In this document: positions 8,347-51,141 of the stretch, piece after piece
Layout of the letters: the number at the start of each line of letters is the position of its first letter
How positions within the stretch are numbered: the stretch's first letter is position 1
DNA from: Flavobacteriales bacterium
GTDB lineage: Bacteria > Bacteroidota > Bacteroidia > Flavobacteriales_E > Vicingaceae
NCBI GenBank assembly: GCA_015075325.1
Contig: JABTUP010000001.1
Coordinates: 186,001 to 250,000, forward strand
Reading direction: 5' to 3'
Length of the DNA: 64,000 bases
Translations under genes and position numbers: made by a program
The notes under the pieces: generated by a model
Databases searched by the model: none
What the model saw: the letters and a program-made list of their open reading frames with translations, nothing else
What the model was told of the DNA's origin: nothing

Positions 8347-8961
8347 TTAGCATTTTACCAGCGAAAAAGCATAAAAAGTTTCTGTAGCTATTTGCTTAAA
8401 ACGCTCCATGTAAACTTGCTTTTGATTTGGTGTATTATCGGCTATTTTGGGGTCTTCATAAGTTGTTCCAATTCTTAACTCTACACCCGGAATAAAAGGG
8501 CAATTTTCTTCTACATCAGAACAGGTCATTATTGCTGCAAAATTGTTTTTTGGATTAGTTTTATAATGATAAACTTTTGAAAAACAAGTAGTAAACTCTT
8601 CTTCACCAAAATAAACACGGTAAATTGGGTTGGTTTCTTCCGTTTTTTTCTCGATAATAAAACCGAATTGAACCAATGCCTCAATCGCATTAGGGTGAAA
8701 GGCAGTAGTTTCTGTTCCTCCTGAATACGAATTTATGTTTTTCAATTGATAATAATTTGCTGCAAATGTAGCAGCTATTTGCCCAAAATGGCTTCTACGT
8801 GAGTTGTGTGTGCAGATGTAAACCAAATTTACAGTTTCGTTTTTTTGAAGCTTTTCGGTAATGTAGTTACTAATTTTGATAAGTAAATCCTTTCGTTTTT
8901 GAGGAATAAAATCGAATTCTTGTTCCAGCTTCTTTGCTAATTTTTCAAGTTCTGTATTCAT
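8347..8961 (-). CDS. Low-molecular-weight phosphatase / arsenate reductase-like protein
   Basis: A 204-residue protein of the low-molecular-weight tyrosine phosphatase fold. The P-loop CX5R is seen as CTHNSRR (Cys near residue 50), preceded by strand VNLVYI and followed by GQIAATFAA. Further cysteines (AIMTCSD, EENCPF) lie where thioredoxin-coupled arsenate reductases have resolving residues. The start at 8961 is chosen because GGAGGT stands 8 nt upstream, one of few clear Shine-Dalgarno sequences here; the frame opens at 8976. As last gene of the arsenic operon it probably reduces arsenate to arsenite, though a phosphatase role is possible. Confidence 0.75.
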   Translation of the reverse strand: MNTELEKLAKKLEQEFDFIPQKRKDLLIKISNYITEKLQKNETVNLVYICTHNSRRSHFGQIAATFAANYYQLKNINSYSGGTETTAFHPNAIEALVQFGFIIEKKTEETNPIYRVYFGEEEFTTCFSKVYHYKTNPKNNFAAIMTCSDVEENCPFIPGVELRIGTTYEDPKIADNTPNQKQVYMERFKQIATETFYAFSLVKC

Positions 8962-8963
8962 TA

Positions 8964-9974
8964 TTAATACCTCCATTTATTTGCTAATGCAACTAACGAC
9001 AACATTACTGGAACTTCGATTAAAACCCCAACAACGGTTGCTAAACTTGCTCCAGAATTTAACCCAAACAACGAAATTGCAACAGCAACAGCTAATTCGA
9101 AAAAATTACTTGCTCCAATCATGGCTGCTGGTGCACAAACATTATGTTGTAACTTTAAATACTTTCCAATAAACCAACTTATAAAAAAGATAAAATAAGT
9201 TTGAATTGTTAAGGGAATTGCAATCAACAAAATATCAAAAGGCTGGCTTACAATTTTTTCTCCTTGAAAAGCAAAAAGCAACACCAATGTAGTTAATAAT
9301 GCTAGAATAGAAATGGGTTTTAACTTTGCTAGAAATACTTCCTTAAACCAAGTCATTCCTTTTGCTTTAATTAAATATTTGTTGGATAAATAACCTGCAG
9401 CTAAAGGTATTACTACAAAAATAATAACCGAAGAAATTAACACATCATAAGGTATTTCAATAGCAGTAATTCCCAACAAAAACCGAACTATGGGAATAAA
9501 TAACAGCAACAAAATTAAATCGTTTACAGAAACCTGAACCAACGTGTAATTAGCATCGCCTTTTACTAAATACGACCATACAAATACCATAGCTGTACAA
9601 GGTGCTGCTCCTAATAAAATAGCTCCAGCTATATATTGTTCAGCATCTTCGGGCGAAAGCCAAGCTGAATAAAGTTTGGAAAAAAATATCCAGGCAAAAA
9701 ATGCCATTGTAAAAGGTTTTACCACCCAATTAATTACAACGGTTAGCCACAATCCTTTTAAGTTTTTGGAAACATCTTTTATTGATGAAAAATCGATTTG
9801 AACCATCATCGGATAAATCATTAGCCAAACCAAAATGGCTACAGGAATATTAACTGTTGATATATTCCAATTGCTGATAACTTCAATAGAGTTTCCAACT
9901 AATTTACCTATTGCAATACCTAAAGCAATGCAACCAATTACCCAAAGGGTTAAATAACGCTCAAAAAATCCCAT
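8964..9974 (-). CDS. acr3: ACR3-family arsenite efflux transporter
   Basis: A 336-residue inner-membrane protein with about ten transmembrane helices, matching the ACR3 branch of the bile/arsenite/riboflavin transporter superfamily. Recognisable segments are the N-terminal FFERYLTLWVIGCIALGIA, GAAPCTAMVFVWSYL with the conserved transport cysteine, and AAMIGASNFFELAVAVAIS. It exports arsenite by the proton motive force. It sits between arsM (14 nt downstream of its stop) and the reductase-like gene, 2 nt before the latter's start. The length is usual. Confidence 0.93.
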   Translation of the reverse strand: MGFFERYLTLWVIGCIALGIAIGKLVGNSIEVISNWNISTVNIPVAILVWLMIYPMMVQIDFSSIKDVSKNLKGLWLTVVINWVVKPFTMAFFAWIFFSKLYSAWLSPEDAEQYIAGAILLGAAPCTAMVFVWSYLVKGDANYTLVQVSVNDLILLLLFIPIVRFLLGITAIEIPYDVLISSVIIFVVIPLAAGYLSNKYLIKAKGMTWFKEVFLAKLKPISILALLTTLVLLFAFQGEKIVSQPFDILLIAIPLTIQTYFIFFISWFIGKYLKLQHNVCAPAAMIGASNFFELAVAVAISLFGLNSGASLATVVGVLIEVPVMLSLVALANKWRY

Positions 9975-9988
9975 GTTTTACTATATAA

Positions 9989-10828
9989 CTAAGAACAACA
10001 GCCAGAGTTTGGTTTACACAAAGGCTTTTCAGCAAAAACAGTAACACTAAAAATTCCAAAAATATTTTCGGTTTTGTACCTTTTTATTTCATCCTGACTT
10101 AAGTATTGGCTTAAAATTTCGTCTGGCAGTAAAATGGGTTTCTCTTTTTGAACAACAATATTTACAAAGCCTGTTTGTTTAATTATGTTCAAATATTCAT
10201 CTAATTGAATAGCTCCAGAAACACATCCTGCGTACATTTCAGCATCATTTTTTAGTTTTTCGGGCAAATTACCTTTTAAAACCACATCGGACACACTAAA
10301 ATGCCCACCTTGTTTTAATACGCGAAAGGTTTCTGTAAAAGCTTTTTGTTTATCTGGAACCAAGTTTAAAACACAATTACTGATAACCACATCAATTGAA
10401 TTGCCTCCAATTGGTAAATTTTCAATATCGCCTTTCCTAAATTCTACATTATTGAAATTTAATTTTTCGGCATTTTCTCTAGCTTTTTCAATCATTAAAT
10501 CGGTCATATCAACACCAATAACTTTACCCGAATTGCCAACAATAGCACGAGCAACAAAACAATCGTTTCCAGCACCAGAACCTAAATCCAGCACCTTATC
10601 TCCTTCTTTTAGCTGAGCAAATTCAGTTGGAATTCCACAACCTAAACCTAAATCGGCAGATTCGTTATAACCTTTTAGTTTACTGTAATCTTCTGCAAAA
10701 ATTGCATAATCAACGGTTGAACAACCACCAACTCCGCAACACGAAACCGTATTATCATCTTTTGATTGATTGGCAATTTCGGCATATTTATCCTGAACCA
10801 TTTTTTTAATTTCTTCGCCTGTATTCAT
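9989..10828 (-). CDS. arsM: Arsenite methyltransferase ArsM
   Basis: A 279-residue SAM-dependent methyltransferase. Motif I reads VLDLGSGAGNDCFVA, followed by VIGVDMTDLMIEKA, with NLPIGGNSIDVVISNCVLNL further along. Cysteines typical of arsenite binding are visible: the early SCCGVGGC cluster, the SNCVLN cysteine, YAGCVSGA and the C-terminal CKPNSGCCS. ArsM methylates trivalent arsenic to methylated, partly volatile forms. It lies 18 nt after arsR and before acr3, so one transcript gives regulator, methylation, export and reduction. Confidence 0.92.
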   Translation of the reverse strand: MNTGEEIKKMVQDKYAEIANQSKDDNTVSCCGVGGCSTVDYAIFAEDYSKLKGYNESADLGLGCGIPTEFAQLKEGDKVLDLGSGAGNDCFVARAIVGNSGKVIGVDMTDLMIEKARENAEKLNFNNVEFRKGDIENLPIGGNSIDVVISNCVLNLVPDKQKAFTETFRVLKQGGHFSVSDVVLKGNLPEKLKNDAEMYAGCVSGAIQLDEYLNIIKQTGFVNIVVQKEKPILLPDEILSQYLSQDEIKRYKTENIFGIFSVTVFAEKPLCKPNSGCCS

Positions 10829-10846
10829 TTTATTTAATGTTTTAAT

Positions 10847-11179
10847 TTAACAACAAGTTGATTTTTGATTATTGATTTGATTGGAAATCGTTGAAAAATA
10901 TTGAGCCAACTTTTCTATTACCTCTTTTTCGAGACAGTAACAAATTGCAGTTCCTTCAACACTTCCTTTAATTATACCTGCGTTTTTTAGTTCTTTTAAA
11001 TGCTGCGAAATAGTTGCCTGAGCTAATGGTAATTCGCTAACAATATCGCCACAAATACACGATTGAACTTTAAGTAAATGTTCAACTATAGCAATTCTTG
11101 CAGGATGTGCGATGGCTTTTAAAAGTAATGCCGTTTCGTTTTGTTGAACTGTAAACGATTCTGATTTAGTTATTCCCAT
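10847..11179 (-). CDS. arsR: ArsR-family transcriptional repressor
   Basis: A 110-residue winged-helix protein of the ArsR/SmtB family. It shows [18 protein letters not shown], the metalloid-binding SCICGDIV (CxC in helix alpha-3) and the recognition helix [16 protein letters not shown]. The C-terminal CC and the cysteine in TAICYCLE may add ligands. Members release DNA upon binding arsenite. It heads the arsenic operon, and a palindrome just upstream of its start (11193-11210) is the likely operator. Confidence 0.93.
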
Positions 11180-35410: not shown

Positions 35411-36434
35411 TAACGTGAGTTCGATATAAAAAAATGAGAAAAAAAATAGAAAATAAGCAGAAAGATTAGTATATTTAACTGGTTCAAAATCAAATATATA
35501 ACTAATAATTCTGCTTATGGAATCCAAAGATAAAGTTATTGAAATTTTCTGTTTAATAGACGATTTTTGTAAAGAATTAAACAAAACCATAGATGAACAT
35601 TCAATAGAAGAAGGTTCATCAACAAAAAAACGTAACAAAAAGTGTCGAATGTCTCAAAGTGAGATAATAACAATTATGCTTCTGTTTCATTTAAAAGGCT
35701 ACCGTTGTCTAAAACACTTCTACATCAATCATGTATGCAAATACATGAAAAGCGAGTTTCCAGAAACAGTTTCCTACAATCGGTTTGTAGAACTACAGCA
35801 AAAAGCTATTGTACCGATGGTTCTGTTTCTTCAAATGCGTTGTTTAGGTAAGTGTTCAGGTATTTCTTTTATGGATTCTACGTTGATTAAAGTATGTCAT
35901 CCAAAAAGAGAACATCAAAACAAAGTATTTAAAAATATTGCAGAAAAAGGTAAGGGTTCAATGGGATGGTTCTTTGGTTTTAAACTTCACATTATCATTA
36001 ATGAACGAGGTGAAATAATTGATTTTTTAATCACAAAAGGCAATGTGGATGATAGGCAGCCATTGAAAGATAAAGCATTTCACAATAAAGTTTTTGGAAA
36101 AATATTTGCCGACAGAGGATATTTGGGACAGGATTTATTCGAACAACTTTTTGTGGATGGAATCCATCTTGTTACCAAGATAAAAAAGAATATGAAAAAC
36201 GCTTTAATGAATATTTACGATAAAATATTGTTAAGAAAAAGAGCTGTTGTTGAAAGTGTTAATGACATCTTAAAGAACCAGTGCCAAATTGAACACACTA
36301 GACACAGAAGTTTTAACAACTTCATAATCAATCTGATATCAGGTCTTATTGCTTATTCTTTTTATCCTACTAAACCAAACATTAATATTGATAAACTTCA
36401 AAGAATCGGTTAATCTTATATCGAACTCACGTTA
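35411..36434 (+). mobile_element. IS982-family insertion sequence, complete
   Basis: A 1024-bp element with perfect 19-bp terminal inverted repeats, TAACGTGAGTTCGATATAA at the left and its complement at the right. It is flanked by a TAA direct repeat (35408-35410 and 36435-36437). Because the target itself contains ACGTTATAA, an alternative reading with a 9-bp duplication is possible. One intact transposase gene lies inside. The exact repeats and the in-frame halves of the broken host gene point to recent insertion. Confidence 0.9.
35517..36413 (+). CDS. IS982-family transposase
   Basis: A 298-residue DDE transposase matching IS982 in length and motifs: the N-terminal IFCLIDDFCKELNK, then FMDSTLIKVCHPKR with Asp120, GWFFGFKLHIIINERGEI, KIFADRGYLGQ with Asp199 and RAVVESVNDILKN with Glu246. 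It cuts and joins the element ends. The reading frame is complete, so the element could still be active. Confidence 0.92.
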   Translation: MESKDKVIEIFCLIDDFCKELNKTIDEHSIEEGSSTKKRNKKCRMSQSEIITIMLLFHLKGYRCLKHFYINHVCKYMKSEFPETVSYNRFVELQQKAIVPMVLFLQMRCLGKCSGISFMDSTLIKVCHPKREHQNKVFKNIAEKGKGSMGWFFGFKLHIIINERGEIIDFLITKGNVDDRQPLKDKAFHNKVFGKIFADRGYLGQDLFEQLFVDGIHLVTKIKKNMKNALMNIYDKILLRKRAVVESVNDILKNQCQIEHTRHRSFNNFIINLISGLIAYSFYPTKPNINIDKLQRIG

Positions 36435-43615: not shown

Positions 43616-44065
43616 ATGCTTAAAAAATTAACCTTCGTTTGCATCCTTGCTTTTACTGTATATTCATGTGCTTCAGATACTACTGTTGAAGCTGAATTAA
43701 CTGACTCAACTGCGGTTGTTGTTGACGACCCCAACGCAGAATTTACAGCTGCCGACACCAGTTCAACAGGTGTTTACCAAGAAGAGGTTGACGATTCGAA
43801 AGAAATGACTTTGCAAGAAGCCATGAAGGCAAATAATGCAGAACCAAAAGTGGAAGAAGGAGGAATGTCGTTTTGCGATTGTGTTAAAAAACAACAAAAA
43901 TTAGAAAAAATAGTATTAGAATCGGAAGATGAAGCCGAATCTGACAAAGCATTGGAAGAACTTAATGCTATGAAAACGGGCGAATGTAAAATTTTGTTTG
44001 AAGGAAATCAATCAACATTAGAGGCAAAACAAGCACACGAAAAGAAAGTAAAAGCTTGTAAATAA
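43616..44065 (+). CDS. Small lipoprotein of unknown function
   Basis: A 149-residue protein with a lipoprotein signal: LTFVCILAFTVYSCASD, where the lipobox cysteine is residue 18. The mature N-terminus is acidic and Ser/Thr-rich, probably disordered (ELTDSTAVVVDDPNAEF). The C-terminal half carries the cysteine pattern FCDCVKKQQKLEK, TGECKILF and VKACK in a helical context. No family was recognised. It lies just upstream of the chaperone-like cluster, with a 155-bp gap. Confidence 0.65.
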   Translation: MLKKLTFVCILAFTVYSCASDTTVEAELTDSTAVVVDDPNAEFTAADTSSTGVYQEEVDDSKEMTLQEAMKANNAEPKVEEGGMSFCDCVKKQQKLEKIVLESEDEAESDKALEELNAMKTGECKILFEGNQSTLEAKQAHEKKVKACK

Positions 44066-44220
44066 AATTATTACCATCGTGTTAAATTAAAAACAGAACT
44101 TAAAATTTAAAAAAAGTCTAGTAAAATCAACTAAAAAGAAACTTTTTATTATCTCTTGCGTATTAGCAAAGTAATCAAAAAAACTTATATTAGCGGATAA
44201 CTTTTAAATTCAATATTTAA

Positions 44221-45120
44221 ATGAATAGATTTTTTACTTTTTTTACTTTTTATGTTCTAGTTTCATCAGTTGTTTTTGCTCAAACAGATTCTGCAATTAC
44301 AACATTACCTGACACTTCAAAAACGAATATTCAAAAAACTAGGAGTTCCAACGAAGATTTTCAAACTAAAGGAATTTCAGTTTCACCATCGCATTTTCAT
44401 TTAACTCAAAAACCAGGCGAAGTTAAAACATACAAAATATCTGTAAAAAACGATACTGAATCAGCAAAACAATTTAAAGTAAATATTTATGATTTTGACA
44501 TGAACGGTAAGGGTAAAAGTAGTTTTATTCAACCCGGTCAAGGTAAATTTTCGTTATCAAGATGGTTAAATATTTCACCCACATTTATAGAAGTAAAACC
44601 TGGAGAAAAGAAAGAAGTAAAATTTACGGTAAGCGTTCCAAATGATGAAAAAGGAAATAAATCGGCTTGGAGCATAATAATGATAGAACAAGAAGAACCA
44701 AGAAAAACATTAGAACCAGCATCAAAATCAGAAAATACAGTTGCTCTAGGAGTTATTCCAACATTTGCTTTCGGTGTTTTTATATATCAAAACCCTCCAA
44801 ATGTTGTTACTAATAATGTCGAAATTACCAACTTCCAATTTCTAGAAAAAGATACTACAAAATCAATTGTTATTGAAGCGGCTAATAAAGGAGATGGAAT
44901 AGCATATTGCACATCTTATATCGACTTAACAAACCTTTCTAACGGTAAACAACAACGTGTTACAGTAAAAAAGTTCACCATTTTACCCGAACTAGTACGC
45001 GACTTTACTTTTATTCTGCCCAACTATTTAGAAAAGGGTAAATACCTGGCTATTGGTGTATTAGATTATGAAAATTCAGAAGAAATACAAGCAGCCAAAC
45101 TCAATTTTGAAATTAAATAA
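44221..45120 (+). CDS. Periplasmic chaperone-like Ig-fold protein (DUF916/fimbrial chaperone type)
   Basis: A 299-residue exported protein with a signal peptide (FYVLVSSVVFAQ). After a linker, two Ig-like beta-sandwiches are suggested: the first with ISVSPSHFHLTQKPGEVKTY, VKNDTESAKQFKVNIYDFD and IEVKPGEKKEVKFTVSVP, the second from about residue 190. The pattern P-GE-K-Y-I-V-N resembles fimbrial chaperones and the peptidoglycan-binding DUF916 domain of WxL proteins. It opens a cluster with two small exported beta-proteins and a large outer-membrane protein, so a subunit-binding chaperone role is inferred. Confidence 0.6.
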   Translation: MNRFFTFFTFYVLVSSVVFAQTDSAITTLPDTSKTNIQKTRSSNEDFQTKGISVSPSHFHLTQKPGEVKTYKISVKNDTESAKQFKVNIYDFDMNGKGKSSFIQPGQGKFSLSRWLNISPTFIEVKPGEKKEVKFTVSVPNDEKGNKSAWSIIMIEQEEPRKTLEPASKSENTVALGVIPTFAFGVFIYQNPPNVVTNNVEITNFQFLEKDTTKSIVIEAANKGDGIAYCTSYIDLTNLSNGKQQRVTVKKFTILPELVRDFTFILPNYLEKGKYLAIGVLDYENSEEIQAAKLNFEIK

Positions 45121-45164
45121 CCATTATAAATTAAAAATCAATTATTAACCAAAATCAAACAATT

Positions 45165-45947
45165 ATGAAAAAACTATCTTATTTGTGCGGTGCTTTATTA
45201 ATATTAGGCTCTGCAAGTAGTTTAAAAGCACAGTTAATCGATGAAAAAGATGTTACTGTGACAATGGATCTTCAGCCTGTTTTGCAGCTGGATATGACTA
45301 CACCAGATCAAATCGAATTTGTATTCGATGAAATTAATGAGTACTATGCTGGTATTACTAAGTATGGTGCTACAGTTTTAAGAGTTAGCTCAACAGTTAG
45401 CTGGGATTTATACGCTGTTGGTCGTTCAACAGGTACTAATGGTCCTGAGTTTTGGGATCAACAAATTGAATACGGTAACAACAACCCGAATGCAATTCCA
45501 GATTTACCTTTAAGCTTATTAGAATTACGTCAAGCACAACCAAATAACGGTGCTGCTGCTGCTGCTGGTTTGTTTGCAGATTATTCTCAAGCATTTTCTC
45601 CAGCAACAGCTCCTAGTGCAGGAAACAGCTTGTATGTAAATGGTGGTACTAATACACCTCCAACAACTAACGACAAGTACATTGGCGGTCACGCAGGTAC
45701 TTCGGGTGTACCTGGGCAAGATTTCTTACCAGGAGGTAGTTACTTAACTCAAACAGGTGTAACTTCTGATTATTTTTATGTAATCGACTACAGAATTTTA
45801 CCTGGTTTACCTGCAATTTTCCCAAATGCAGCAGACGCTGATGGTGCTACTTTTGAGGATTTAATAACTGTTAATGGTGCTGGAGCTTATGCTGAGCCAG
45901 GTGTTTACACCATGTATGTTCAATACATTTTATTAGAAGACCAATAA
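45165..45947 (+). CDS. Exported beta-rich protein, candidate major fibre subunit
   Basis: A 260-residue exported protein (signal ALLILGSASSLKAQ). The mature part starts EKDVTVTMDLQPVLQLDM and has a long Gly/Asn/Pro/Ala-rich central region (NPNAIPDLPLSLLELRQAQP, NGAAAAAGLFADYSQAFSP). The end, AEPGVYTMYVQYILLEDQ, matches in pattern the end of the next exported protein and recalls the last strand of spore-coat-U and archaic pilus subunits. Codon choice is markedly less AT-rich than in its neighbours, suggesting high expression. A strong stem-loop follows. Subunit role is inference. Confidence 0.55.
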   Translation: MKKLSYLCGALLILGSASSLKAQLIDEKDVTVTMDLQPVLQLDMTTPDQIEFVFDEINEYYAGITKYGATVLRVSSTVSWDLYAVGRSTGTNGPEFWDQQIEYGNNNPNAIPDLPLSLLELRQAQPNNGAAAAAGLFADYSQAFSPATAPSAGNSLYVNGGTNTPPTTNDKYIGGHAGTSGVPGQDFLPGGSYLTQTGVTSDYFYVIDYRILPGLPAIFPNAADADGATFEDLITVNGAGAYAEPGVYTMYVQYILLEDQ

Positions 45948-45967
45948 AATAGGCAAGCAATTATTTT

Positions 45968-46000
45968 AAAGGATGTGTTTGTTTTTCAAACACATCCTTT
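45968..46000 (+). other. Intercistronic stem-loop between the two candidate subunits
   Basis: A perfect 14-bp stem AAAGGATGTGTTTG/CAAACACATCCTTT with loop TTTTT. No T-run follows on the plus strand, so it looks like an mRNA-protecting hairpin or weak attenuator. Confidence 0.7.
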
Positions 46001-46015
46001 AATAATTCTATAAAA

Positions 46016-46630
46016 ATGATTTCTAAAGCAACTTTATTTTCATTTCTATTTCTTATAGCTTCAAATGTTATTGAAGCTCAAATTCATTGTGGATTAGTAG
46101 AAATTACTCCAAACACTTCTGTTAATGCACTGATGACATTTGATAATTTTACCAGCTACAATGGAGGAATGATTATAAATAGTGTAGCTAAAATTAGAAT
46201 AAAAGTAGAAGACCAAGCTATTCCAGACCCACTTTGTTCTTGGAGTTTAATAATGACCATAGATAACAATCCAGGAGGAGGAACTCCTGCCAATGAATGG
46301 GAAGAATTAAATCAATACGGAAGTGGATTAGGAACAAACCCTCCTATTGATGTTTTAGAAATTAAAGTTAGAAATTCATGTACAACATCTCCTATTGATG
46401 GTGTTTTTCAAACATTTAATAACCATGGAGATATAATTGACATCATTGCTCCTATGCTACCAATTACCCCAGCTGGTAGTTGTGGATTAAATGTTAATGG
46501 GCCTGGAAGCTTTTTATCAAATTACGATGAGTTTAATTTTGATATCGATATTAGGGTTAAACCAAACTTTAGTTATAATCCAGGTATTTATCAGCTAAAT
46601 ATAAGATTTCATTTAGAAGAAAATCCTTAG
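46016..46630 (+). CDS. Exported beta-rich protein, candidate minor fibre subunit
   Basis: A 204-residue exported protein (signal ATLFSFLFLIASNVIEAQ). Mature sequence starts IHCGLVEITPNTSVNALMTF and has cysteines at CGLV, DPLCSW, NSCTTS and SCGLN that could pair. It ends YNPGIYQLNIRFHLEENP, the same PG-V/I-Y plus alternating strand plus LE-D/E ending as the preceding protein. Length and fold suggest a single beta-sandwich. It is followed 6 nt later by the usher-like gene. Role as minor or tip subunit is inferred from position. Confidence 0.55.
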   Translation: MISKATLFSFLFLIASNVIEAQIHCGLVEITPNTSVNALMTFDNFTSYNGGMIINSVAKIRIKVEDQAIPDPLCSWSLIMTIDNNPGGGTPANEWEELNQYGSGLGTNPPIDVLEIKVRNSCTTSPIDGVFQTFNNHGDIIDIIAPMLPITPAGSCGLNVNGPGSFLSNYDEFNFDIDIRVKPNFSYNPGIYQLNIRFHLEENP

Positions 46631-46636
46631 TGTAGC

Positions 46637-49600
46637 TTGAATAATAAAACACATACTCACTTTATAAGAATAGCATTAGTTCTTGCTCTGAACTTGTGCT
46701 TTTTAGGCATAAGTTATACTCAAAACGATTCCATTTTAGGTTCTCCAATTGAAGATTTATTGGGTAAAGACTCTCTACTCAACACTCCATCTCAACCATT
46801 AAATAAAACCGATACTGCAAACAATAATTCTGTATTAGAAGGCGGAGAAACCGATTTACTGTTAACAGGATTTAATTCCAAAAATATTGAATTAAAACAA
46901 GGAGAAATTATTTCCAATGTTTTAAAAGTATATAATAATTCAAGAGAAAATATAAAGTTTACACTCGATTTAATTTATCCAGGAAGTTGGCAACAACTAA
47001 ATGATGCTTCAACCGAATACGAAGCTATTGTTGGCGACACCATTTACATTCCTATTGTTTTAATTCCGAATAAATTAATTAATGGAAACACAGAGGTTAT
47101 TATCAATGCATTTTTAATTAACCTCGATAAACAACAAATTGCAAATAATTATTTCAACCTTCGAACCAAGAAAAAAATTTCATGGGATGTGCAAGTTGAA
47201 CCTTCAAATACATTCTATTTTAAAAACGGTGAAACAACCAAAGATTTTGTTTACCGAATTGAAAATACAGGAAACTATAAACAAGATATATTTGTTAATT
47301 ACTCTACTCTTAGAGGAGATTTAATGTTGAATGATACAAACGACTTAATAATTAAAAATCCAAACTTTACCATGAGTTTGGAAAGTCATGAAGATACCAC
47401 ATTAAAATATAGAGCATCAATAATTACCGATAGAGAAAGAAATTTTAGAAAAATTCCAATCAACACCTATATTCCAAACACCAATTTATATTATAAAAAA
47501 TACAGTTTATATGTAAACAGTAGCGAGCCAAAAGGTGTTGACGAAACTACCTTTAAAAAGGGGAATAAAGTTGATTTTGTAAAGTTGCCAAACGAAACAA
47601 AAGTAGAAGAATTTGGTTACCCTCACCTTCCTTTAATTGTTGAGGCTACTGCACAAAATCTATTAGATGTAAATTCGTTTATGTCGCTTAACATGCGTGG
47701 TTTTAAGCAATTGAATCAAAGAGCAAGTTTATCGTATTTCGCACAACTCAACTACAACCAAAATTATTACACAAACAATTTCTTAACTAATTCACCATGG
47801 TATGTTGGTTATTTCGATCACAACAAAACAATAGAGGTAGGACAAATTAGCGGAAATGTTATTGGAATTACAGGTTATGGAAAAGGAATTAAAGCTTCAT
47901 ATTCCTATTTACAAAAACATAAAACAGGTGTGTTTTATGTAAAATCTCCAGGCTTTTTTGGTCAGGTTAGAACAGAGTCGTATGGATTATTTCATACCTA
48001 CACTCACAACGAATATTTTAATGTAACAGGTAAGTTTGGCAGACAAACCTCATACATTAGCAACAAATCAATTAACTCGTTTTCGCTTTTACCAAATTTC
48101 AATATTCAACGTAGGCATTTTTTTAGTTTTGTTGGAGCGTTAACTGCTCGTGAAGATTATAATCCAACCACTTCTAACAAACCTTTTTATGGTTATTTAA
48201 TTGGTGGTAATTATTCCAGTCAGTTTTTAGAAAAAAAATTACGAGTAAATTTAGGTAGTAGATTTAACGATAGAAATTTTAGTACAGGTGCATTTCAACG
48301 GTTTAGTATTAATCATAGAACAAGTTACAACATTAATGATAAATGGGACACCTATTTATCTAACAATTATCAAAATCTTCAAACCTATAATACGTTTACT
48401 AATTTACCAGGATTTAAACAAGAAATGTTGTTTAACAATTTGGTTTTTTCTACAAGAACAAACAGAGGTTCTTATCAACCTGGTATTTATTACGATTACA
48501 GAGATTATTTAGCAAACAGAATCCATGCTAGAGGTATTACTTTTAGATACTCAACCTATAATTTTCTTCAAAATATGCTAGCATCGGCATTCATAAAAAC
48601 AGGTTATAGTTTACCTATTGATTTTGAAGAAAGAAAAAACTATTACACATTTGAATTTAGTTCACTTTTACGTTATAAGGTGTGGAATTTTTCAACTCGA
48701 TATAATTATGGAGCATTATCTACAACTGCTTTTCAAAACCAAAATTACAAAGGAATAACACCTCAAATGGTTCGATTATCTCTTCAAAATCAACATCAGT
48801 TTAAAAATAAACATTTGGTTCTTGAATCTAACTTGGTTTATAATTATTCAAATGTTTTTAAAACGCACAGCATTGGATTGTTTCCCGAAATTTTTTATTT
48901 CACCAATTCAGGATGGCGATTTAGCATAAGAGGTAATTATGCTATAAATACAAGCAACTATGGTTCGGTTTACTCTACCGACACATTGGTTATAGCAAGC
49001 TACGATGAGCGGGAAAGAGATTTTGTTCAAAATTTCACTCTAGGAGCAACCGTAAGAAAAGAGTTTGGTATTCCTATCCCATTTATTAAAAAAATGGCTG
49101 CTTCAGTTAATTTTATTTCTTTTTATGATATTAACGGAAATGGCTTTAAAGACAAAGACGAACCATCAATAGAAAATGTAGTGGTAAGAATGGGAGGTAA
49201 AGAAGTTTTAACCAACAACAAAGGAGAAGCCGATATTAAAAATATTCCAATGCAAACCTATCCTCTTTTTGTTAAGTCTTTAGACGATTTAACAGGATGG
49301 TTTCCAAACGCAAAAGATTCAATTCAAATTATTGCTAATGCTGTACATTACATTCCTTTTGTTAGAGGAGTTAAAGTTTATGGAGATGTTGTTTTAGATC
49401 GTCAAAAAATTGCTGTTGCCGATACTAGTAAACCGTTTGATTTATCAAGAATAAAAATTACTGCAACCAACGGACAAACCTTTAATACACTTACCGATAT
49501 CAAAGGTAAATTTGAATTTTATATGCCAAATGGTGATTACATCATAACCATGGATGAGAGTATTTTAGGAAATAAGTATAAACTAACAAGAAACAATATT

Positions 49601-49705
49601 CCTATTACATTAAAAAACACTCAAGACGGTGTTTATGTTTCGTTTTACATCATAGAAAACAGAAAAAAAGTAGTTGTAAAAGAATTTGGAACGCCTAATG
49701 AATGA
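46637..49705 (+). CDS. Large usher-like outer-membrane protein
   Basis: A 1022-residue exported protein. The start is TTG, 6 nt after the previous stop, fixed by the signal peptide IALVLALNLCFLGISYTQ with no in-frame ATG before it. Residues 50-300 are Ig-like (NIELKQGEIISNVLKVYNNS). Residues about 320-840 show dense aromatic alternation (FMSLNMRGFKQLNQRASLSY) expected for a 20-plus-stranded barrel. An SdrD-B-like domain (SFYDINGNGFKDKDEPSIEN) and a carboxypeptidase-regulatory-like domain end it. The domain order resembles a pilus usher, though no usher family signature was confirmed. Confidence 0.6.
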   Translation: MNNKTHTHFIRIALVLALNLCFLGISYTQNDSILGSPIEDLLGKDSLLNTPSQPLNKTDTANNNSVLEGGETDLLLTGFNSKNIELKQGEIISNVLKVYNNSRENIKFTLDLIYPGSWQQLNDASTEYEAIVGDTIYIPIVLIPNKLINGNTEVIINAFLINLDKQQIANNYFNLRTKKKISWDVQVEPSNTFYFKNGETTKDFVYRIENTGNYKQDIFVNYSTLRGDLMLNDTNDLIIKNPNFTMSLESHEDTTLKYRASIITDRERNFRKIPINTYIPNTNLYYKKYSLYVNSSEPKGVDETTFKKGNKVDFVKLPNETKVEEFGYPHLPLIVEATAQNLLDVNSFMSLNMRGFKQLNQRASLSYFAQLNYNQNYYTNNFLTNSPWYVGYFDHNKTIEVGQISGNVIGITGYGKGIKASYSYLQKHKTGVFYVKSPGFFGQVRTESYGLFHTYTHNEYFNVTGKFGRQTSYISNKSINSFSLLPNFNIQRRHFFSFVGALTAREDYNPTTSNKPFYGYLIGGNYSSQFLEKKLRVNLGSRFNDRNFSTGAFQRFSINHRTSYNINDKWDTYLSNNYQNLQTYNTFTNLPGFKQEMLFNNLVFSTRTNRGSYQPGIYYDYRDYLANRIHARGITFRYSTYNFLQNMLASAFIKTGYSLPIDFEERKNYYTFEFSSLLRYKVWNFSTRYNYGALSTTAFQNQNYKGITPQMVRLSLQNQHQFKNKHLVLESNLVYNYSNVFKTHSIGLFPEIFYFTNSGWRFSIRGNYAINTSNYGSVYSTDTLVIASYDERERDFVQNFTLGATVRKEFGIPIPFIKKMAASVNFISFYDINGNGFKDKDEPSIENVVVRMGGKEVLTNNKGEADIKNIPMQTYPLFVKSLDDLTGWFPNAKDSIQIIANAVHYIPFVRGVKVYGDVVLDRQKIAVADTSKPFDLSRIKITATNGQTFNTLTDIKGKFEFYMPNGDYIITMDESILGNKYKLTRNNIPITLKNTQDGVYVSFYIIENRKKVVVKEFGTPNE

Positions 49706-49710
49706 GAAAA

Positions 49711-51141
49711 TTAATTTTTAAAAAATTCCTCATTAAAATTAACTAAGTAGAGTGTTTTTTTTGCTCTGGTAACTGCCGTGTACAACCATCTAAGGTATTC
49801 CATGTTTATCATTTCTTCGGTTAAATAACCCTGTTCAACAAAAACCACATCCCATTGCCCGCCTTGCGATTTATGGCAAGTAACAGCATTTGCAAATTTT
49901 ACTTGTAACGCTTGATAATATGGGTTTTTACGAATCAATTCGTTTCGTTTCTTTCGATTGGGCTCATAACTGTACTCTTCCGAAATGGCATCATACAATT
50001 CTCTAAAACGAGTTGATGAAAGTGATGGTGATTCTGCTAAAATACTTTCCAATAAAATTTTTACTTCCAAATCTTTTTCCTCAGGGTAATCGAGCATTCG
50101 AACTGTAACGGTTGCAAATCGAAACCCATATTGCTCCTCCTCTCCCCTAATTTTTAAAATCTCAATAATATCGCCATTAGCAATAAAACCAGCTTTAGAA
50201 GAACTATCTAACCAAAAATAGTTGTTTTTTACAACCATCATTAAATCACTCGAAGCAATTTCGTCTTCCAACCATTTTATTCTCGACCTAATTTGAAGAT
50301 TAAACAAATTTGCTCGTTTATTACTTCTGCAAATAACCATTACATTTTCATCTCCAAATTTGCCATAAGAAGTGTTTAACTCGTCTTCAAGATCTATTCC
50401 TGAAATAATTTTTACATCAATACCAGATGATTTGATATTAAAAAGAGGCAATTGATAATTTTTCTCCTGAATTTTTTGACGAAGTGATGTGGCTAACTTT
50501 AATATTCCGGAAGTTTTTTGTTGTCGAACAACTTCGTTTAACTCAAAAAAAATAAGATTTAAATAATAGGTTTTATACATAAAATCTTCGTCCAAAGCAG
50601 GACTTAAATCTGTTCCAACAGGAGGAAGCTGAGCTGTATCGCCAATTAAAATAAGTTTGCAGTTTTTCCCAGCAAAAACATAACTGAGTAAATCGTCTAA
50701 CAAACTTTTGGTTTCGCCCCAACTTGCCTGAGTTAAACCCGATCCATCACCAATCATTGAAGCTTCATCAACAATAAAAAGAGTGTTTTCAAATTTGTTT
50801 TCGTTTAACACAAAACGAGTGTAACCATCGCCACTGGTTTTTAACTGATAAATCATTTTATGTATAGTAAACGCAGTTTTATCAGAATAATTGGAGAGTA
50901 CTTTTGCTGCTCTACCCGTTGGGGCAAGCAAAACGGAACTAAAATTAAAATCGGGGAGTGTTTTTACCAAAGCACCAACAATGGAGGTTTTTCCAGTTCC
51001 TGCATAACCTTTTAATATAAAAGTACTTTTGGGAGTAGTAGAAAAAGTAAAATCGGTAAGTTCTCCAATAACTTTTTGCTGGTTTTTGGTTGGTTTAAAA
51101 CCAAAATATGAGAGTAGCGATTGATAAAACAGGTTGTGCAT
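49711..51141 (-). CDS. RecD-like superfamily 1 DNA helicase
   Basis: A 476-residue ATPase: Walker A FILKGYAGTGKTSIVGAL, motif Ia VLLAPTGRAAKVL, DEAS-type Walker B LFIVDEASMIGDGSG, motif III LILIGDTAQLPPVG, the UvrD_C_2 region VTCHKSQGGQWDVVFVE and motif VI WLYTAVTRAKKTLYLVN. This is the stand-alone RecD2-like type without RecBC genes near. It should unwind DNA 5' to 3' in repair or recombination. It ends 6 bases from the convergent usher-like gene. Confidence 0.9.
   Translation of the reverse strand: MHNLFYQSLLSYFGFKPTKNQQKVIGELTDFTFSTTPKSTFILKGYAGTGKTSIVGALVKTLPDFNFSSVLLAPTGRAAKVLSNYSDKTAFTIHKMIYQLKTSGDGYTRFVLNENKFENTLFIVDEASMIGDGSGLTQASWGETKSLLDDLLSYVFAGKNCKLILIGDTAQLPPVGTDLSPALDEDFMYKTYYLNLIFFELNEVVRQQKTSGILKLATSLRQKIQEKNYQLPLFNIKSSGIDVKIISGIDLEDELNTSYGKFGDENVMVICRSNKRANLFNLQIRSRIKWLEDEIASSDLMMVVKNNYFWLDSSSKAGFIANGDIIEILKIRGEEEQYGFRFATVTVRMLDYPEEKDLEVKILLESILAESPSLSSTRFRELYDAISEEYSYEPNRKKRNELIRKNPYYQALQVKFANAVTCHKSQGGQWDVVFVEQGYLTEEMINMEYLRWLYTAVTRAKKTLYLVNFNEEFFKN

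Follow-up and report, generated by a model that had tools for sequence, protein, structure and literature searches.

Within a 64,000-nucleotide stretch of DNA from a Vicingaceae member of the Flavobacteriales (GenBank assembly GCA_015075325.1, contig JABTUP010000001.1, positions 186,001 to 250,000; hereafter the window), we analysed a cassette of four co-oriented open reading frames (ORFs) located on the forward strand at positions 44221-49705, separated by intergenic gaps of 44, 68, and 6 bp and named here by their start positions. They encode a periplasmic chaperone-like protein (44221), a major fibre subunit homologous to the protomer of the TLP-1a/b fibres (45165), a second, paralogous subunit (46016), and a usher-like outer-membrane protein (46637). 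All four proteins have a hydrophobic signal-like stretch at the N-terminus, in agreement with the first-pass annotation of this DNA, which had described four co-oriented exported genes. Dozens of Bacteroidota loci with differing neighbours encode these four families in an identical order, at roughly 20-92% identity, and the ORFs are therefore real genes.

Putative fibre subunits

The gene at 45165..45947 (forward strand) encodes a protein of 260 aa, whose AlphaFold2 model, built from 38 sequences and, like the model of 46637 described below, a monomer prediction, has a beta-rich fold with a predicted local distance difference test score (pLDDT) of 82. When searched against the PDB with Foldseek, the model matched TLP-1a/TLP-1b (9ikj and 9ikk, from CryoSeek, Wang et al. 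2024, doi 10.1073/pnas.2417046121; E 5e-21 and 2e-20; template modelling (TM) score 0.84 by target), and its alignment with TLP-1 by VIA-align gave Z 26.5 at 38% identity. The same two entries were the sole matches of the 45165 profile among PDB sequences (E 9e-58 and 3e-59). The major subunit is a clear homologue of the TLP-1 protomer in both sequence and fold, and is a member of that protomer family; among the weaker structural matches of its model (Foldseek and VIA) are many subunits of fibres, including CfaB, TasA, CsuA/B, PapK, and FimF.

In the PDB, TLP-1 is deposited as a helical fibre, each entry containing 16 chains. The TLP-1a/b fibres were solved by cryogenic electron microscopy from unpurified pond water, and in the fibre the N-terminal strand of protomer n+4 reportedly completes the immunoglobulin (Ig)-like domain of protomer n. 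In 45165, an N-terminal extension, QLIDEKDVTVTMDLQPVL (residues 23-40; 45231..45284, forward strand), aligns with the TLP-1 N-terminus in the profile alignment, with the common segment LI.E..VTVTMDLQPVLQL; residues 24-39 are without secondary structure in the monomer model, and the long N-terminus is retained in 38 of 38 major subunits. We propose that this extension may serve as a donor strand. The C-terminal beta strand (residues 244-260; 45894..45944, forward strand), common to 45165, 46016, and TLP-1, is in turn the proposed edge of the acceptor groove and the strand to which the chaperone would bind. Among major subunits, mean pairwise identity reaches 82% in the N-terminal extension and 84% in the C-terminal strand, compared with 54% for the central part.

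The second subunit (46016..46630, forward strand, 204 aa) shares with 45165 the C-terminal strand motif (GVYTMYVQYILLEDQ / GIYQLNIRFHLEENP) that had been noticed earlier in these two small beta-rich proteins, and the two families align by hhalign at 99.7% (E 6e-26); the hhalign values given here and below are pairwise profile comparisons, as distinct from database searches. Judged by these profiles the two subunits are paralogues, and the 46016 profile also reaches TLP-1/2 among PDB sequences (E 3e-9). With cleavage sites set by a simple rule, which mis-set a few rows, 20 residues separate the mature N-terminus from the conserved core in 46016 vs. 31 in the major subunit; this distance is usually 15-20 residues in second subunits, most of which are about 11-15 residues shorter than major subunits in this N-terminal stretch. 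Lacking about 11 residues of extension, 46016 could therefore accept a strand and hardly donate one, and the short N-terminus, together with the four Cys that the protein carries, suggests a tip subunit, i.e., the first of the fibre.

Other identities were considered for the subunits. They contain W-x-L-like motifs and a C-terminal strand similar to that of WxL domains, yet neither a profile match nor a Pfam match (PF13731) to this domain was obtained, and no profile match was found to the E. coli K-12 set of type 1-like pilins. Among the 38 major and 35 second subunits there was no convincing Pfam family match, nor any FimA/Mfa-type match as expected for type V (FimA/Mfa1) fimbriae, and no lipobox is present at the predicted cleavage site of the subunits.

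Chaperone-like protein and outer-membrane protein

The first gene (44221..45120, forward strand, 299 aa) encodes a signal-like N-terminus followed by two Ig-like domains; the protein ends after the second Ig domain and is devoid of a C-terminal transmembrane helix. The WxLIP peptidoglycan-binding domain (PF06030, DUF916) was detected in 44221 above the Pfam cut-off (E 4e-8) and in 27 of 30 homologues, and the family is related to WxLIP proteins across both Ig domains (hhalign 96.8%). Similarity to the PapD-family chaperones of E. coli K-12 also extends across both domains and is weak (hhalign 68%), while the Pfam family PapD_N gave weak matches in three of the 30 homologues, with a best value of 0.0013. 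In classical chaperones, conserved basic residues, an Arg in strand A1 and a Lys in G1, anchor the C-terminus of the subunit. No invariant basic residue occurs in strand A1 in the homologue alignment; an Arg/Lys at position 161, which sits before the putative G1 strand, is present in 29/30. Using phmmer against PDB sequences, no meaningful matches were found for the chaperone or for the barrel.

A bridge between these groups was found in other Bacteroidota lineages, where small exported beta proteins are encoded at four loci (L112-L115) together with a chaperone and with outer-membrane proteins that PF00577 had brought up. DUF4402 occurs among the small proteins of L112 (5814-13481) and L115; the outer-membrane proteins measure 987-1505 aa, that of L112 exceeds the PF00577 cut-off, and their C-terminal domains are of the carboxypeptidase-regulatory-like (L112) or SPOR (L114) type. 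By hhalign, the bridge chaperones align with the 44221 family at 97.7% and with PapD at 77%, and the bridge ushers align with E. coli ushers at 94.9%. These links therefore place 44221 with the chaperones of usher systems, and the Ig-fold, chaperone-like character first read from its translation is upheld.

The largest gene (46637..49705, forward strand, 1022 aa) begins at a TTG codon located 6 bp past the preceding stop. Its AlphaFold2 model, based on 39 sequences (pLDDT 82.8, predicted TM score 0.61), reproduces the layout anticipated by the first-pass annotation: two N-terminal Ig-like domains (residues 75-296; 46859..47524) and a beta barrel of about 26 strands (residues 307-813; 47555..49075), both delimited by DSSP of the model, are followed by two C-terminal beta domains, SdrD_B-like and carboxypeptidase-regulatory-like (residues 821-1007; 49097..49657; Pfam and model), all on the forward strand. 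Ig-type FixG_C and NPCBM_assoc matches were each obtained in seven of 39 barrel homologues. Since five homologues end in SPOR and one in OmpA, the C-terminal domains are probably periplasmic, as in ushers, and SPOR or OmpA on these barrels would anchor the fibre base to peptidoglycan. Homologues with such endings include L010, L011 (and other A5 members), and L092.

In the Foldseek search of the model, FimD and PapC lead (E 2e-13 to 2e-10), interspersed with Ig-repeat proteins, and VIA places FimD second (Z 16.1); the FimD alignments of both programs span the barrel and the C-terminal domains. No PF00577 match was identified by Pfam in the host genome, in the four cassette proteins, or in the homologues of 46637, which agrees with the lack of FimC or PapC signatures pointed out earlier; canonical ushers are indeed rare in Bacteroidota, as only one of 392 genomes exceeded the PF00577 cut-off. 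The alignment of the 46637 family with the bridge ushers is weak (hhalign 7.5%) and covers the C-terminal domains only.

Distribution and genomic context

Most loci with enough flanking sequence have the genes arranged as chaperone, major subunit, second subunit, and barrel. All genome surveys were made on samples of genomes. A single-sequence search recovered the barrel protein in seven of 41 relatives, and a profile search of the class (E < 1e-10) gave about 53 positive genomes out of 396, this being our own count, from which weaker matches to the common SdrD_B domain were excluded; in a phylum-wide survey with the barrel profile, many matches outside the class likewise covered only SdrD_B and were left uncounted. 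The major subunit was present in 46 of the 396 genomes (profile search), and the barrel accompanied it in every one (46/46). Where no chaperone gene was adjacent, it was found elsewhere in the genome in eight of eight cases. A scan of species genomes yielded 50 named loci, which include Flavobacteriales, Bacteroidales, Crocinitomicaceae, Vicingaceae, Polaribacter, Flavicella sediminum, and Geofilum rhodophaeum.

Pairwise distance matrices of the four proteins, calculated for 23 loci, correlate with r values of 0.81-0.91, and none of 2000 permutations was as high; shared species ancestry accounts for part of this correlation. Mean pairwise identity was 57% for the major subunit, 41% for the chaperone, 39% for the second subunit, and 32% for the barrel.

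Several loci deviate from this pattern. Extra copies of the major subunit lie outside the cassette, among unrelated genes at L116:7557-8348 and as second copies in G388 and G109. Divergent barrel relatives of about 930-955 aa occur in G044, G061, G269, G280, G312, G655, G666, and G674, several of these genomes being near-complete; G044, G061, G269, G280, and G312 gave no match to the major-subunit profile, and these barrels possibly belong to the same machine with other fibre proteins. The barrel ORFs of L048 and L050 reach 1779 and 1505 aa, with about 500-800 residues extra at the N-terminus, and the barrel gene at L089:382-3980 is split into five ORFs, denoting a broken gene or an assembly error.

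In the window, a lipoprotein gene (43616-44065) lies upstream of the cassette, and a helicase gene (49711-51141) converges on it from the other side. Two congeneric genomes (G001, locus L135; G003, locus L137) have these flanking genes adjacent, about 10-20 bp apart, and lack the cassette, so that 44066..49710 appears as an insertion relative to a clean empty site; therefore, the whole block was gained or lost as a single unit. The host genome carries a single copy of the major subunit. A scan for promoters and terminators revealed no enrichment vs. shuffled sequences. An origin from a mobile plasmid or phage was considered and set aside, as the major subunit had no plasmid match and the barrel no relatives in viral contigs.

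Elsewhere in the window, a transposase-like ORF (IS982-like by eye) lies at 35517-36413, about 8 kb upstream of the cassette, and an arsenic-resistance-like cluster, judged from translations, occupies 8347-11179 on the minus strand, comprising a phosphatase-type reductase, an Acr3-like permease, a methyltransferase, and an ArsR-like regulator. A similar arsenic cluster stands beside the cassette of L012 (12156-14449).

Discussion

Our data make it likely that the four-gene cassette functions in the manner of a chaperone-usher pathway to produce TLP-1-type fibres. In the pathway that we infer, all four proteins would be exported by Sec, and the chaperone 44221 would keep the subunits bound in the periplasm, probably by lending a strand that completes their open Ig-like sandwich. 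In WxL clusters, WxLIP is likewise predicted to supply the strand that completes the WxL sandwich (PMC10599100). At the barrel 46637, the N-terminal Ig domains and the C-terminal domains on the periplasmic side would then receive the chaperone-subunit complexes; 46016, which is devoid of a donor extension, would exit first, as the tip, followed by 45165 subunits, the N-terminal extension of each incoming subunit displacing the chaperone strand from an earlier one. The predicted result is a fibre held together by donor strands. Chaperone profiles, the TLP-1 match, and the fold matches to FimD and PapC support the earlier reading of the locus as a divergent chaperone/usher-like fibre system without canonical parts.

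Several observations weigh against this explanation. The barrel is not detectable as an usher by sequence (hhalign 4.5% vs. E. coli ushers), TM-scores of its model to FimD are only near 0.3, and in VIA the top match of the barrel by itself is MtrB (Z 19.5). Furthermore, no plug domain is inserted between barrel strands in the DSSP assignment of the model, a small helix at residues 696-705 being the sole plug candidate; the first-pass annotation had predicted a plugged barrel of 24 strands, and 46637 as modelled departs from this textbook usher in both respects. An ordinary plugless porin had been envisaged as the opposite outcome: the plug is indeed missing, but with conserved domains at both termini 46637 is not an ordinary porin. 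In addition, seven of the approximately 53 barrel-positive genomes have no recognisable subunit, and the N-terminus is longer, and of another kind, in a few second subunits (L010, L080).

Compared with classical and archaic chaperone-usher pili (Fim, Pap, Csu), the cassette is alike in having the genes for chaperone, subunits, and barrel together in a single operon, in the large barrel of the 46637 model, which is preceded by a periplasmic domain at the N-terminus and followed by two beta domains at the C-terminus, in the weak structural matches of 45165 to pilins, and in the lead of FimD/PapC in the barrel fold search. It differs, however, in that the chaperone lacks the conserved basic residue of the first strand (A1), the subunit profiles bear no relation to E. 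coli K-12 type 1-like pilins, and neither a PF00577 match nor a visible plug is present, which is why we do not class it in the classical family. That the cassette nonetheless descends directly, if with great divergence, from the classical pathway, each of its parts having its homologue in PapD, PapC, or the pilins, is possible, although we lean against it. The chain of profiles from 44221 through the bridge chaperones to PapD, and from the bridge ushers to those of E. coli, favours such descent, as do the C-terminal domain types common to 46637 homologues and bridge outer-membrane proteins, whereas the corresponding link is absent for the barrel, whose alignment with the bridge ushers is confined to the C-terminal domains, and for the pilins. 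The bridge loci themselves resemble the cassette in their chaperone and in the C-termini of their outer-membrane proteins, but have outer-membrane proteins found with PF00577, some DUF4402 small proteins, and no TLP-1-type subunit that we could find. This alternative is a claim of ancestry whose mechanism overlaps that of the preferred explanation, and the confidences that we attach to the two do not sum to one.

Two further alternatives concern the mechanism itself. The standard WxL cluster of Gram-positive bacteria comprises one WxLIP and two WxL proteins (PMC10599100); the cassette is similar in having one WxLIP-like protein, with PF06030 and a second Ig domain, and two small beta proteins. 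It could thus form a WxL-type surface coat or anchoring complex, in which the WxLIP-like protein is a lasting structural partner of the small beta proteins instead of a chaperone and the barrel anchors or displays the complex, with no long fibre; the closeness of 44221 to WxLIP and the wall-binding SPOR and OmpA domains of some barrels would fit. We consider this unlikely, as no WxL domain is detected in the subunits, the chaperone has no transmembrane helix, and 45165 is homologous to a protein solved as a helical fibre. The cassette also differs from WxL clusters in its extra outer-membrane barrel and its Gram-negative host. Alternatively, the fibre might form after export by another route (e.g., the beta-barrel assembly machinery (BAM), type IX secretion, or TasA-like self-assembly), with the barrel as an accessory porin or anchor. 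In favour of this, the barrel has neither usher sequence homology nor a plug, and its fit to large barrels of a generic kind, such as MtrB, is no worse than its fit to FimD; against it, the barrel accompanies the subunit in all 46 genomes and is adjacent to it, its domain order is usher-like, and the subunits have no type IX C-terminal domain, their last residues being the conserved C-terminal strand, so that we regard export by another route as very doubtful.

With assembly by a chaperone-usher-like pathway as the preferred explanation, a broader proposal may be put forward tentatively. A plugless barrel of about 26 strands, non-homologous to PF00577 ushers, that together with a WxLIP-type chaperone exports TLP-1 fibres might constitute a distinct assembly class, and the WxL system, the cassette, and chaperone-usher pili might be branches of one ancient family based on donor-strand complementation; we hold this to be conceivable, short of probable.

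The structure of TLP-1 was solved before its producers were known. Whereas TLP-1 is known from pond-water fibres, the subunit described here has an organism context and candidate assembly genes, and the cassette supplies candidate producers in Bacteroidota, including isolates of Flavicella sediminum and Geofilum rhodophaeum. A further interest of the cassette lies in the connection that it suggests between Gram-positive WxLIP proteins and the chaperones of pili, and in an usher-like pore that may gate without a plug, in a phylum nearly devoid of canonical ushers. With a candidate chaperone, tip, and export pore at hand, the biology of the TLP-1 family becomes open to genetic tests.

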